A DNA stretch of 60,029 nucleotides from Acrasis kona. Taxonomy: Eukaryota > Heterolobosea > Eutetramitea > Acrasida > Acrasidae. Position 1 is the stretch's first letter; every line of letters starts with the position of its first letter. Both the position numbers and the translations under genes were made by a program. Of the stretch, positions 30,874 through 46,432 are shown one piece after another. Under the pieces are notes generated by a model. The model was not told the origin of the DNA and did not search any database. It was given only the letters and a program-made list of their open reading frames with translations. The stretch is from NCBI GenBank assembly GCA_026419775.2, contig JAOPGA020001436.1, positions 1-60,029 on the forward strand. Direction: 5' to 3'.

Positions 30874-33538
30874 TTAATTACCGGTTCCAAATACATGTTT
30901 GGGTCCAGATAGGGTTGTGCCTAGATTATATTGACCTGGACCAGGTTTGTAGGATTGATGAACAACCTCGTGGTCCTTGAGCTTTCCTTTGATGGTAAAA
31001 CCTCCAAAATCATTACCAATCGTCGATGGTATGGAATACTGTGCAGGACCAGGCGATACATCTGCTGTGTTCACGTAAGTTCTTCCTTTTAATGTAATCT
31101 TTCCGCCATCCCCTCCAATATGATGCCTCACATCATAAGCACCAGGTCCAGGGTTATTTGCCTTTGGAGAGTGCTCTCTTAATCTACTCTTCATTGATAT
31201 TGCTGGAGAATCAGCACCAAACTCTCCTTTTGTTGGCGAGTACTGCCCAGGACCAGGTACATAATCTCTGGCAGTAGTGTTCAAGCGAGGAGAAAATGAA
31301 AAAGCTGCACCACCTCCAATGGATGTGTTATAGTTGTAAGCACCAGGTCCAGGAGATAAATGAGAAGGACTGCCAGGATCTGTTCTGCCTTTCAATGTGA
31401 CCTTTCCGCCTTCTCCTAGTGTAGATTTGATCTGATAAGACCCAGGTCCAGGCACATGATCTTTTGATTTTGGATTACTAGTCCTACCAGATATCGATAT
31501 CTTGGCTCCATCTTTTCCTATACCTTGACTATGTGTATCATAAGCACCTGGTCCTGGTACAAGTAATTGAGCATTTGCAATATTAGTTCTACCGGACATT
31601 GACATTTTGGCGCCATCGTGCCCAATAGGTTTCGAAGTATCGTAAGCACCAGGTCCAGGATTCAAATCCTTACTGCTCATGGACTTTGTGCGTGAACCAA
31701 GAGAGAAAGAGGGTCCTTTTGTGGATTTATTTACAGAGTAGGCACCTGGCCCTGGACTGTTCTCTGCGCTGTGCGTCTTTGGAGCAGTTTTTGGTCTTAG
31801 TGAGAAGCTAGGTCCTTCGCTACCGACCTTTGATTTATAATTATACTGACCAGGTCCAGGAACTGAATCCCTACCTGAAGTTGTTTTCGGTCTCATGCTC
31901 ATGCTAAATTTGGGTCCTCCACTTCCAATTTTGTTATGTTGATCTACGTCGTACTGTCCCGGACCCACTACGTTTGATCCTACTCTTTATTTAAAAATTT
32001 TAAATTTATTTTTCACATACTTTTGTCAGATGATGTGGTTCTTGATTTCATGGAAATTCCAACATGTGTAGACTTTTGATTCAAATCGTAAGCTCCAGGA
32101 CCAGGAAACAATTCCTTAGTGGACTCCTTGTGTCTGCTCTTCATTGTAATGGAAGGACCGCTATTAATAGATTTTTCAAGTGATCTTGAATCGTCGTAGG
32201 CACCAGGTCCTATTGTGATTGTTAATAAAGAGAGAAGAAGATATTTACGTACCGGGCGACAAATAACTACTCTTTTCCTCATGTCTTCCTTTCAGAGTAG
32301 GTCCTTTACTAGGGTCAAAACTAGATTGTGAAACGTAAGCTCCAGGTCCAGGTACTAATGATTTATCCCTTGGATCGGTCAATCTGCCATGCAAACTGAC
32401 TCCTTTTTTCAATGTCCCTATAGCACCATGTTCCAAGGAATAAGATCCAGGTCCAGGTACATTTTCAAATTTTTCTGATTTGGTTCTTCCACCAAGAGAA
32501 AATCTAGGTGTTTCTGTTCCAAACGCATTCGATGCTTCGTATTGTCCAGGTCCAGGAACGTTCTTAGCTGGAGATGTGTCTCTAGTTCTTCCAGAAAGTG
32601 AGTAGGATGGTGCACCGTGACCAATGTTCTTTTCGGTGTTATAAGCTCCTGGTCCAGGTACGATTTTAGTATCAGTTCCATCAGATAATTTGCCTTTGAG
32701 TGTAGCTCCTTGCGTAGAGAGCGTTGATCCTGTAGAATACGTTCCTGGGCCGGGTACTCCAGCATTCGGGTTGCGCCTCTCTGGAGATCTCCCACTCATG
32801 GAAAATTTGGGTGCATCACCGACAGTATTTCTTAGTTCGTAGGCTCCTGGCCCAGGCAACGACGCGCTTTGTAGAAAAGATCCATCCGATTCTCTACCGC
32901 TCAAAGATATACCAATTGCTGTTGAGTTTCCAAATCCGCTTGAATCGTAAGCGCCAGGTCCGGGTCCCAAAGTTTGCATTTCTGATTTTATTTAATGAGA
33001 TTATACTTCGTTTGCTTACGCTTTTTATCTAGTCTAGGAGACATTGTAAATCCTTTCCCACTTTTAGGTGAGAAAGAAGAGTTTGTGGCGTATGTACCAG
33101 GTCCTGGATTGTCTCCTATTTTTGTCGAGTCGTACCTCCCAGACATTGAGAACTTCACATTGTCACCAATACTACTTTTTAAGGAGTATTCACCAGGTCC
33201 CGGAACTCCTTCTCCTCTCGGTGTTAATGTACTATTTCCCTTACCAAGAAGAGAAAATTTATAATTATTCTTATCGGGGCTAACGGGATTGTATTGACCT
33301 GGACCTGGATTAGAAGCCCTTAACTGTTCAGGATATCTCCCTTTCAGTGTGATTTTGGGGTCGGTTCCGATTGAGCGAGGATCATTGTATGTGGCAGGTC
33401 CAGGAGAGTCTTCAAAGTTTAGTAAATCGAGATTTGAAATTTAGCCATACAAGGTACTGCGTGAACAGGTAGTGGTCTCCCTGATTTCTCTTTAACAGCT
33501 CTTAATCTTTCTTTTGTAATGTTCAAATAGCTACTCAT
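30874..33538 (-). CDS. Sperm-tail PG-rich repeat (SHIPPO/ODF3-like) protein
   Basis: Five exons (33451-33538, 33020-33409, 32253-32981, 32021-32209, 30874-31979) separated by introns of 41, 38, 43 and 41 bp give 833 residues. All phases agree. I count 24 STPGR units, each opening with PGPGAYD, PGPGQY or a variant and closing with a FSMSGR/ITLKGR-type strand, about 30-40 residues apart. STPGR proteins lie along axonemal or cortical microtubules in cilia and flagella. The start MSSYLNITKERLRAVK was chosen because it reads directly into the first exon; an upstream ATG (MSQSPG) ends at once. One unit, VVGPGQYD at the exon 4/5 junction, lacks the first Pro. Confidence 0.85.
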
Positions 33539-33691: not shown

Positions 33692-35271
33692 TTATTTGTT
33701 CAGCCATTCAGGTTCGGTTTGAATCCTATCATAGAACTTCCTTATGTACTTCACTTGTTTAGAGTTAGGACCTAATCTCCTCAATTTATAAAAGTGATCA
33801 ACAGCGTCTTTAACATTCTTTACCTCCTTGGTCCAAAGAAGATGACAAACACATATAATACCGGTCCGACCTATACCTGCATGACAATGTACTAAAACTT
33901 TTTTTCCTTGGTTCGTATATTGATCTATGACCTTCATGATCTGGTGAAAGTAATTCAGTTTTGATGAAAAAGTGGAACATACGTTAATTGTATGATCAAG
34001 ATTAAGAGGGATTGAATTATCTCGCCATCCTACTGTGTGTACATCAATGTCGCCGTCGTTGAATTCTTTTAACGAGTAACTCCAACCCTCTTCATGTAGT
34101 TCGTTATGACCACAAAGTGGATGCTCGTGTGGTTCTTGTAGGTTTATTATGGCTGCAATATTATTATTTTTGAATTGTTCAACAACACAATGCTCTTTTA
34201 TCAGATGGGAACTAGGCCTTTGCGATGCAATAACCATTGGCGTAATCCAAACAGAATGAAGTCCTTCTATCGCAGGATTCACCCAATCCATCAACGATAC
34301 ATCTTCGTACTCACAATACATACACTCTGCAAGTGAGAGATTACAATTTTAAAACATCTAAAAGTTAAATCGATTGTTTATTGACCTGGAACACAATCGC
34401 TTGTTATTTTATCTTCTAAATAGTTTTGTATCTTGACTTGCACCAAAAATTGTTCTTGATCCCTCATAGGAGATGTACACTTGCCACCAACAGGTAAACA
34501 TTTCATCGCACGGATTGCTTCCATCATCATCACTTCTACTGTATTACTTGATTTATAAACAATCTTGGTGTCTCGTATATATTTTAGAGGATTTGATTTT
34601 TCTGCCAACTCTTCCAATCTACTCAAGGCAACAGATTGCAAACTAAATTTACTATGTTCGGAAGAAATTATATCGGCTTGTTCATATGTAAAATTGGTAA
34701 TTTTGGACGCATCAATATAAGCTAAACATATTTTTTGACCACTTTTTTTCAATGCAATATATTCATTACTATACGGTAGCACAACAGTCAAGACTAGTTT
34801 ATATTTATCATCAGAACAAGATAATCCAATTTTATTAAACAAGTATGTTTCTTTGTAGGCATTCTCTACAATAGAATTGTACAATAAAGGTTGGTCCTGA
34901 GTAATAAATGCTGAGGGATTTGCTATATGTACATAAACATTCTCATCATCTATACTTAGTCCATCATCAATTACAATTGCGTTGGCAGGATCTATAGTAT
35001 AAACGGGAAGATGAGAAAAGTTTCTTCGTCTCTTGATTTGAGAGTCAATCAAAGTGGGCATCTTTTGTACAATACCATCCACCTCCAATTGGATATTTGA
35101 TTCTTTATTACGGGTGAACACTAATTTTTTAAGATTACTATCAACAACTACCTTATTCTTGTTTTGATCATGGTCACTCGCAACCTTCCTCAATCTACTC
35201 AAAAAGTCATTAGAATAAAAACATGGCCGAACAGTTCGTTTCACAACACATTTCACACTCAACCTAATCAT
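33692..35271 (-). CDS. RNase II-like (RNB) domain fused to PTPDC1-type phosphatase
   Basis: Exon 1 (34386-35271) and exon 2 (33692-34326) flank a 59-bp GT-AG intron in phase 1; the joined frame is 506 residues. Residues ~1-30 look like a mitochondrial presequence (MIRLSVKCVVKRTVRP). Residues ~90-290 resemble an RNB domain: TIDPANAIVIDDGLSI, YVHIANPSAF and CTSPMRDQEQFLVQ. The second of four catalytic Asp is replaced by Val and the middle of the domain is short, so nuclease activity is doubtful. The C-terminal ~210 residues are a PTPDC1-like phosphatase with the CX5R loop HCHAGIGRTG and ASQRPS, INLQEPHEHPLCG and GWRDNS boxes. PTPDC1 relatives are linked to cilia and centrosomes. The alternative is two genes: the first could end VPGQ-TAA and the second start at 34321. 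Confidence 0.65.
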
Positions 35272-35303
35272 GTAATAACTGATTACAACAAAAAGAAAAT
35301 ATT

Positions 35304-36370
35304 TTATTGGCTTGGTGCTGTTGTCGAATTTTGATCAGTCAATGTGGATACATTCGTCCAGTTTCCATCCAATCCCTCCTTCCATAAAGTGACTTGATTG
35401 TCGGCGGTACTGACGGCTAGTAGATTTCCCATTAAACTCCAACTGACTCTCCAAACAACAGTATTGAACTTGTTAACTTTAGTAGCATTCCAGTTGCCAG
35501 TAGAGTTGGTGTCTCTCCTCCATACATAAACGTTTTGATCTTGAGAACATGAAGCGATGGTGTCATAGGGGAGACCAATGTTTGAGGCCCATGCGACATC
35601 TCTTACCCAGTCAGAGTGTTTATCTAATTTGAACTCGCACTTCCATTCGTTACCTTCCAAAACCCATACTTTAACAAGGTGATCTCCACCGCCGCTAACA
35701 AGACGTGTTTGTAGTGTTTGTTGCGCTTGTTGATCTGGTTGATTGGTCAACGAAGCCAAAGGAGCGCTTGGTGCCCAACTAATGGCATTGCAGTTAATGT
35801 CGTGTGCGTCCTTAATGACCTTAGGATCCCAAGTGTTGGTTTGTTCGCGGTATGTGTTGACAACGATGGTGCTGTCGGAACTTGCGCTTGCTAAAACTAG
35901 TCCCAACTCATGAGGAGCCCATGCGACAGCATTTACTATAGAAAAATGAAAAGATGAATTTTGGTTGACTTACCGGACGATAGGTGCTTATACTCGTAAA
36001 TTTTACTCCATTGGTTGTTTTGCCCTTCCCTCCAGATGAATACCTTGTGATCATATGAGCATGAGGCTAAAATTGAGCCAAATTGAGGGTGAGCCCATGC
36101 AACTTGCCAAACAGGTCCCTCGTGACTACATTACAAGTAAGCATGGGTTATAAGATTAACATACCCTTTCAACTCTGCGAGTGGTTTGTTGTCTTGGGTC
36201 ACGTCGAAAATTTTAATTGTTCTGTCTGAGGAACAGGTCGCAAGCCTCTTACCGTAGTAATCAAACTTGGAATCATGCTGTATAACAGTTAATTTTATTA
36301 GCTTTTTTCATCAAATAATTACGATCATGTCCTCATGTTTGGTATCAAAGGTTGTTGTTGCGGTCGTCAT
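35304..36370 (-). CDS. SEC13: Sec13-like WD40 protein
   Basis: Four exons (36323-36370, 36165-36277, 35974-36125, 35304-35935) with introns of 45, 39 and 38 bp encode 314 residues, the normal Sec13 length. WD repeats cover the protein: [93 protein letters not shown] and [20 protein letters not shown]. Sec13 pairs with Sec31 in the COPII outer coat and with Nup145C/Nup96 in the nuclear pore. The start [16 protein letters not shown] matches the family N-terminus. It is divergent from CCDC40, with 143 bases between the start codons. Confidence 0.92.
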
Positions 36371-45300: not shown

Positions 45301-46383
45301 GATATTTTATTGAATGTGTTGGCGTTAAGGTTAAACGTAAAATCCAGAACGTTGTATCCTTCTGTTTCTGGTTTACCAGAGTATTCTCCATTGCTATTTC
45401 CACAAGATTCCAATTCTCCATTCTTGTTGTTAAATATAACTGCCGAGAATCTATCTTGCATTTTTAATTCGAAATTGAATTTCTCGATGGGTAATGACGT
45501 GAATCAATCTCACTTATCCGCTGCCAATCAACTGAATCACTTGTGGGAGAGTCATCCTCATCAAGGTCCTGATGTGATTGATCCAAAACGTGATTTGAAT
45601 TTGAAGATTAGTTTGGATCTGAACGATGACTTGACCAGACGTGCTCAATTGTTAGATAGGATGAGAGATTCGAAATGTAATAAATGTCCGAAATTAGATG
45701 TTCAATTTGCTCAGGTCAAGGAGCAAGATCGAATTGAACGTGGTCTTCACCAAATCCAAATGGCACTTTCGGATCAAAATTTGAGTTTGATGCCGGAATT
45801 TGAATGTAGGAAAAATGTGTTGCATACTTTGAGATATATCGATAGGGACATGACGGTACAAGTAAAAGGAAGAGTTGCTTGCGAGTTGAATTCGTGTGAT
45901 GAATTGATTGTAACCGAAATGATTTTTGAAAATGTTTTTACTTCCTTGTCTTCCGAAGAATGTGTTGCAGTGTTGTCTTGTTTGATTTGTCAGGATAAAA
46001 CAGAGGCTCTTCCAGAGTTGACTGATAATTTAACAAAAGCAAAAGAGAATTTGATTCAGTTGGCAATGTCATTGGGTAAGATTCAAATGGAGAAGGGACT
46101 GGATACTTCGCCTTCTGAATATGTAAAACAAGTGTTGAATTTTGGTTTGATGGAAGTGGCTTATGAGTGGGCGTTGGGTCTGCCTTTTGCCGAAATTTGC
46201 AAGTTGACTGAAATTTTGGAAGGAAGTATTGTAAGGAGCATTACCCAAATCGATCAAGCGTGTAGAGAAGTGAGAAATGCTGCAAGAGTTATTGGAGATG
46301 CAGATCTATATCAAAAGATGGAGGAAGCCTCTGCTAAAATTAAGAGAGACATTGTGTTTGCTGCAAGTTTGTATGTTGTGTAG
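42367..46383 (+). CDS. SKI2: Ski2-like DExH RNA helicase
   Basis: 1338 residues in one exon, the usual length for Ski2/SKIV2L. A long acidic N-terminal arm (residues 1-400) leads to RecA1: AHTSAGKT (~residue 443), TSPIKTLSNQK, DEVHYINDPERGVVWEE (~533) and LLSATIPN (~563). RecA2 holds GIGVHHSGLLP, FAMGVNMPA and QMSGRAGRRGLD (~795). An insertion and a C-terminal helical DSHCT domain follow. Ski2 is the motor of the SKI complex that feeds mRNA to the cytosolic exosome in 3'-5' decay. It is distinguished from Mtr4 by the DPERGVVWEE box and the long N-arm. There are no introns despite its size. Confidence 0.92.
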   Translation: MTDALLKEIAAVHDQVITPEMEEIQFDIREIGTVGEAIIQTRTSQTKSIIGPIHPRLTKPQQNIKSEIEEEFLKPKALGREDHILLPNKLDLDRIYESFAYEVSRPKHNITIIKDEITGGIKMFDEVYQPESTETSSESMSLMRQPAPSKDFVRGSSQNVPFLPGGINDNEKVVSQMLGTSNAPPQQKISFNVDEEIDLLLGKTDATLQTIPPGFDHGFGGSATDKTTVTVVGKNPVGLLSPYMEAFKDNISKSVQSAQGNGTSNTFDDFTEVNQHYTMEAQKKEKERQLKFDQRKQNIIQLQNVFGMDDDDDDEDENHQDENGSPIDQKEELTPEEQDDSQHIIETNQESLQDIDQLLAQDTSAPTDKNDLGLPINNQAFTNFLKNKKKKQQKEWAIMGGIDVTNFKDMVPEMAMHFPFDLDTFQKQAVYHLENNESVFVSAHTSAGKTVVAEYAIALGQKHLTRVIYTSPIKTLSNQKFREFKKTFGDVGILTGDVQINPTATCLIMTTEILRSMLYKGADIIRDIEWVIFDEVHYINDPERGVVWEEVIIMLPEHVNLILLSATIPNTYEFADWIGRTKRKNVHVVGTKKRPVPLEHHLYYGGNIYKIVDAQGHFLSNGYKSILEAQKETNRYNKSLGKRPEHKSDWVKILELLKKKKLLPVVVFSFSRAKCEETAYGLTRVDLTTSGEKSEIHIFMESSISRLKSEDRQLPQVLRIKELLKRGIGVHHSGLLPIVKEMVEILFSKGLLKVLYATETFAMGVNMPARTVIFNQTRKHDGRNFRELLAGEYIQMSGRAGRRGLDTVGMVLINCEGMKEVPEEMVLNKMILGEATMLESQFRLTYNMMLNLFRLEDFRVEDMLKRSFSEAASQKLLPNHESLDKSAVKLHDLKKQEQDCLYGTPAIRDYYDWAVQLQSSNLNINKHILQMSSRRDIRDLLCNGRVVAVRMDDGSVTMAMLLSTCDIKKAEGHQMNPNDILLNVLALRLNVKSRTLYPSVSGLPEYSPLLFPQDSNSPFLLLNITAENLSCIFNSKLNFSMGNDVNQSHLSAANQLNHLWESHPHQGPDVIDPKRDLNLKISLDLNDDLTRRAQLLDRMRDSKCNKCPKLDVQFAQVKEQDRIERGLHQIQMALSDQNLSLMPEFECRKNVLHTLRYIDRDMTVQVKGRVACELNSCDELIVTEMIFENVFTSLSSEECVAVLSCLICQDKTEALPELTDNLTKAKENLIQLAMSLGKIQMEKGLDTSPSEYVKQVLNFGLMEVAYEWALGLPFAEICKLTEILEGSIVRSITQIDQACREVRNAARVIGDADLYQKMEEASAKIKRDIVFAASLYVV

Positions 46384-46432
46384 AATCTCTAATAAATTAC
46401 AATATTTTTCAAAGACTTAAGCGGGAAGTTTG

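Follow-up and report, generated by a model that had tools for sequence, protein, structure and literature searches.

Phosphatases of the PTPDC1 family (Pfam DSPc) are linked to cilia, and the proteins of the RNase II family (RNase II, RNase R, Dis3L2, and Dss1) share an RNB domain, in which the four-Asp pattern D-x5-D-x-D-D presumably binds metal. To our knowledge, Ssd1, a fungal member of the latter family, carries no phosphatase. Ssd1 is described as a pseudonuclease with a regulatory role (structure 7am1) that retains its CSD and S1 domains (PMC8934651). Among the papers found on PTPDC1, cilia, and RNB–phosphatase fusions, no title or abstract opening describes an RNB–phosphatase architecture.

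We analyzed a window of Acrasis kona DNA (i.e., the whole stretch of 60,029 nucleotides, whose positions are used throughout) in which a first-pass annotation had joined an RNB domain to a PTPDC1-type phosphatase. Both domains are real, and their presence is more than chance; the earlier interpretation as a whole is partly supported. The features of the locus are listed in Table 1.

Table 1. Features of the RNB–phosphatase locus (window positions)
Feature	Coordinates	Strand	Basis or comment
Possible mitochondrial presequence, first 18 residues	35218..35271	-	Charge and hydrophobic moment only
RNB-like coding exon	34386..35271	-	Residues 1–295 and first base of codon 296 of AKO1_015562
RNB domain, N-terminal portion (residues 82–129), containing TIDPANAIVIDDGLS	34885..35028	-	Pfam RNB and alignment A5
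Remainder of the RNB domain, degenerate	34402..34881	-	Profile score, alignment, and predicted fold
AATAAA containing the RNB stop TAA (34380–34378)	34377..34382	-	Register enriched at A. kona ORF ends
GT–AG stretch of 59 nt	34327..34385	-	Intron (public and earlier model) or gene-to-gene spacer
Peptide across the RNB/phosphatase junction in the joined reading, VPECMYCEYEDVSLMDWVNP			
Lead-in Cys codon TGT with ATG 34321 directly after	34319..34324	-	
Phosphatase exon, N-terminal half	33983..34326	-	Public model
In-frame intron of 42 nt, GTATGT...CACCAG	33941..33982	-	Public model and family alignment
Phosphatase signature HCHAGIGR (Cys-x5-Arg)	33866..33889	-	
Phosphatase exon, C-terminal half, up to stop 33692	33692..33940	-	Public model

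The RNB and phosphatase domains and their relatives

Like the proteins of the RNase II family, the product of this locus has an RNB domain, an identity on which the profile and the predicted structure agree. Pfam RNB matched residues 82–129 with 33.0 bits (cut-off, 29.3), over positions 1–53 only of the 326 in the profile. The motifs and residues known from RNase II were placed on an alignment, of which eight rows were inspected in full. Of the catalytic Asp residues, three are conserved and the second of the four is replaced by Val (D.....V.DD), which leaves the four-Asp pattern of this domain incomplete. In the remainder of the domain, the landmarks LTYEQAD, LRSMK, and TSPxR are recognizable, with TSPMR at the right place, and the motifs LP..LSN.CSL, EEFML.AN, HFGLA, and RRY.DL (including its RRY) are lost. 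Taken alone, this second half scored 6.0 bits, a value exceeded in 2 of 1000 shuffles, and most of the RNB part lay below a pLDDT of 50 in the first structure model. Deletion of core segments further sets the product apart from the RNase II family, as does the lack of a match to CSD or S1 domains among the Pfam families listed up to E = 1. The exchange of one Asp for Val and the loss of core motifs agree with the earlier description of the RNB domain as probably catalytically damaged, and the RNB part may be a pseudonuclease whose nuclease activity has been lost. The first 18 residues, with a net charge of +5, no acidic residues, and a hydrophobic moment of 0.53, suggest an organelle presequence, as had also been claimed.

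A search for relatives of the RNB part among 1773 candidate proteins returned only the public A. kona protein AKO1_015562 itself as significant, the next matches being P0013 (E = 2.2) and P0014 (E = 4.7). Our searches of the A. kona genome covered 37.35 Mb in 1021 contigs, and the best match of the N-terminal RNB part was a weak one (E = 0.019), to an RNB protein on contig C676.

The phosphatase part was recognized by Pfam DSPc at residues 344–494 of the 506-residue version of the product (62.9 bits; gathering cut-off, 33.5), and its fold was confidently predicted by the structure model. In the alignment with 11 relatives, the HCHAGIGRTG signature is intact and the general-acid Asp of GWRD is present. 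With the PTPDC1 family, the window copy shares a Cys-containing lead-in and the motifs GLHSxWI...QRPSS, EHPxCG, WRD, and HCHAGxGRTG, and its assignment as a CX5R phosphatase of the PTPDC1 type is thereby upheld. The stop codon at 33692 follows directly after the domain, and the window copy lacks the C-terminal extension (LHGxE...VPK...) of the canonical PTPDC1 of A. kona, a 420-aa protein as spliced here, with introns of 37 and 39 nt. That gene, on contig C317, occupies locus L010 from about 1456, and its product is 43% identical to the window copy over 183 residues; the other best matches reach about 36–45%.

Besides AKO1_015562, two protein searches (yielding 11 and 32 more) revealed 43 distinct phosphatase relatives, 39 of them with the phosphatase signature and 11 of them ≤232 aa long and maybe fragments. 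None of the 43 matched an RNB profile at E values up to 10; fewer than 8000 candidates were scored per search under set length limits, so the absence of RNB-fused relatives is not proven. In a tree of 37 phosphatase domains, from which 8 of 42 proteins (no signature match or too short a piece) as well as P0046, P0013, and P0014 were left out, the window copy is sister to a second A. kona paralogue, on contig C904, with a support of 0.88. Neither the C904 nor the C317 copy has an RNB domain. The C904 protein (252 aa) resembles the window copy in being short and in having only two lead-in Cys residues; it is a stand-alone phosphatase, the ORF upstream of it appearing by eye to be acetyltransferase-like and not RNB. 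A 92-base tRNA-Ile (aat) gene detected by ARAGORN lies near the C904 phosphatase (L009:928-1019), and its length suggests a short intron.

Gene models and the lead-in cysteine

The RNB ORF runs on the minus strand from ATG 35271 to TAA 34378 and, without splicing, encodes a 297-aa protein ending in ...VPGQ. The public model AKO1_015562 (P0001; 492 aa) joins the RNB and phosphatase parts across 34385–34327, and the translation of the window without the 59-nt and 42-nt stretches equals it letter for letter. The first-pass annotation had predicted 506 residues, with the 42-nt intron (33982–33941) left in, having overlooked it because it is in frame. The 14 residues encoded by this intron are absent from all 11 aligned relatives, and without them HTIN–IMKVID of the window aligns closed against MLN–IMHVIG of P0002; therefore, the product, if joined, would have 492 residues and not 506. 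As for the 59-nt join in phase 1, a frame-keeping GT...AG pair is indeed available at 34385–34327; the fusion itself is unproven.

Several observations speak for an obligate fusion, in which one mRNA would encode one 492-residue chain of presequence, RNB pseudonuclease, and phosphatase; we regard this as a serious candidate, albeit one with the greater weight of probability against it. The public model has the same junction, and according to the genome paper (PMC11589745) A. kona genes were predicted by Maker with RNA-seq and curated manually, and introns measure 9–95 bp; the evidence behind this particular model is not visible in that source. Directly 5' of ATG 34321, where the phosphatase frame has its first ATG, lies the codon for a Cys that all 12 rows of alignment A1 share and that C904 and C317 retain as well; we estimate the chance of a Cys codon at this place at ~3% (2 of 61 codons). 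Since this conserved Cys precedes the first in-frame ATG, coding seems to extend upstream; a separate phosphatase gene starting at ATG 34321 would leave the Cys outside the protein. We looked for an ATG in the phosphatase frame between the upstream stop and the lead-in Cys and found none, whereas the C904 paralogue has its own ATG 11 codons before its first Cys. The first two ATGs of the phosphatase frame also lie in poor start contexts: ATG 34321 is worse than all 48 of 48 reference starts, and ATG 34291 is as low as the lowest 6% of them. However, this context test is hardly an argument that ATG 34321 is an internal codon rather than a start, as its score is reached or exceeded by 99% of 158 internal ATGs.

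The first-pass annotation had further held that the junction resembles the Cys-rich lead-in of PTPDC1 proteins. The phosphatase exon contributes CxxC only, whereas the PTPDC1 lead-in has three Cys residues (C-x2-C-x4-C) and is longer and differently spaced. In the joined reading, exon 1 adds one Cys, another point for the fusion, and the lead-in becomes C-x3-C-x2-C. The family counterpart of the second Cys is ambiguous.

The 59-nt stretch as intron or spacer

We put at about even the chance that the locus consists of two tandem same-strand genes, the 59-nt "intron" being a spacer and the fused model an annotation merge. The evidence for it comes from the RNB stop codon and from the splice sites. 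Among the 103 long ORF ends that were counted in the window and in loci L022–L041, 27 have AATAAA at register -2 to the stop, as the RNB ORF does, and in 61 the stop is TAA followed by A. Outside inferred introns, the AATAAA register was found at 27 of 99 ORF ends (26 of 98 without the RNB ORF), whereas within 28 inferred introns only 4 of the 60 stops encountered had it (Fisher p = 0.001, the stops not being independent). In downstream non-coding DNA, it accompanied 26 of 531 stops, and among other stop triplets 578 of 27,042. The same ending is present in the WD40 gene upstream (among the 98) and in the phosphatase downstream (not among them). The signature at the RNB stop favors a separate gene end and hence two genes. 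The intron of a young fusion could retain the old stop and AATAAA, so this main argument for two genes is weakened and tells more strongly against an old fusion than against one of recent date.

The donor of the 59-nt stretch, GTCAAT, is off consensus and scores -0.17 bits, a value above the 10% quantile (-0.29 bits) but below the 25% quantile of 18 reference introns with a posterior >0.9 (median, 3.6 bits). Two of these have a GTC donor, and at 112 and 116 nt they are doubtful. A GTA donor is found in 15 of the 15 reference introns of 36–52 nt, whose selection relies on the same donor model and which include one probably false join. In addition, 26 of 37 candidate introns with a consensus donor measure 36–46 nt and one falls at 54–63 nt, and the three introns placed by family alignment (37, 39, and 42 nt) all have GTATG donors. 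Compared with the usual 36–46 nt, an intron of 59 nt is long. Its acceptor, ...TCTCTCACTTGCAG, looks good by eye, which fits the fusion, while the donor and the length depart from the habit of A. kona.

A frame-keeping join is also cheap. When the bases of the 53-nt spacer were shuffled (20,000 shuffles), a frame-keeping GT–AG join was allowed in 54%, and one with its acceptor ≤12 nt from the first ATG of the phosphatase in 25%. Of 26 same-strand neighbor ORF pairs (a table without the RNB–phosphatase pair, the phosphatase ORF presumably falling below the coding filter), 10 had a gap of ≤60 nt and 4 of these could be joined, although exons belonging to a single gene may be among them. By itself, therefore, the frame-keeping join proves little and amounts to no more than chance. 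Our intron scan, which yielded 33 ORF pairs, also proposed a 41-nt GT–AG intron (35351–35311; posterior, 0.94) between the WD40 gene and the RNB ORF. This join is likely false; it is absent from the public model, and therefore ORF joining yields false hits at this locus. A 58-nt GT–AG stretch was also seen at window positions 46371–46428, where it separates a Ski2-like helicase ORF from the neighboring one, and may be either a long intron or a second chance join.

A fusion is further disfavored by the fact that no relative with an RNB–phosphatase architecture was found in these searches. It could have arisen by read-through past the RNB end: weak splice sites would have been recruited, the former stop codon and poly(A) signal spliced out, and the upstream RNB gene connected with a duplicated phosphatase at the latter's lead-in. 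A recent origin of this kind would account for an intron that has a weak donor, is of atypical length, and still contains AATAAA. That the locus is such a recent read-through fusion, observed to date in Acrasis only, with a PTPDC1-type phosphatase carried by a dead RNase II domain and its organelle presequence, we judge possible but not the likelier outcome; the RNB part would then address the phosphatase to RNA or to an organelle.

The presence of a poly(A) signal with a stop and of a usable GT–AG pair within the same 59 nt also leaves room for a dual output, in which splicing competes with use of the internal AATAAA and both an RNB-only protein and the fusion are made. Nothing in the sequence demands two products, and we consider this arrangement unlikely. 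A decaying locus, with the RNB ORF and/or the phosphatase a recent pseudogene whose remains the public model strings together, would account for the lost RNB core motifs and Asp, for the loss of the phosphatase start relative to C904, and for the low coding score that the phosphatase exon obtained (0.008 per codon, for a segment that included the 42-nt intron and began one base early, with the coding frame listed second). It is very improbable, however, given that the 297 RNB codons are open with a typical coding score (0.092 per codon versus a long-ORF mean of 0.08) and that the phosphatase is intact in its signature and general-acid Asp and has a confidently predicted fold.

Gene neighborhood and implications

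The locus had been placed in a ciliary gene neighborhood. This claim did not hold: among 18 ORFs scanned, the sole cilium-linked gene is one with sperm-tail PG-rich (SHIPPO) repeats (window 30874–33440; short introns), which lies among unlike neighbors, and a ciliary gene cluster was rejected. The string "flagell" does not occur in the main text of the genome paper (PMC11589745). Upstream, the WD40 (Sec13-like) gene has its stop only 32 nt before the RNB start codon (window 35271–35304), which shows that closely spaced tandem genes exist at this locus.

With two tandem genes, the upstream one would encode a 297-residue, probably organelle-targeted and catalytically dead protein of the RNase II fold, ending at TAA 34378 in AATAAA, and the downstream one a PTPDC1-type CX5R phosphatase of about 195 residues starting at ATG 34321. 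For this arrangement, we infer the transcript boundaries and the localization. With its metal site altered and core segments missing, the RNB protein would not cut RNA and would at most bind it, like Ssd1. The phosphatase would act through a cysteinyl-phosphate, with the Cys of HCHAGIGRTG as the predicted nucleophile and the Asp of GWRD as the general acid, and its substrates are expected to be phosphorylated proteins.

Should the fusion be produced, a single chain would unite an RNA-binding fold with protein dephosphorylation, a combination that none of the 43 other phosphatase relatives shows, and one intron would preserve relics of its origin (the stop codon and poly(A) signal of the former gene end). 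It would be new as a phosphatase tethered to RNA or located in mitochondria, and would offer a clear snapshot of neighbor fusion in a compact genome. Otherwise, the locus illustrates the merging of neighbors by gene models across gaps of a few tens of bases. For the phosphatase, one chain would mean being carried to RNA or to the mitochondrion, and two chains an ordinary short enzyme. In addition, a stop codon inside AATAAA provides a usable check of gene ends in A. kona, considering its frequency at ORF ends relative to stops inside introns (26/98 versus 4/60).
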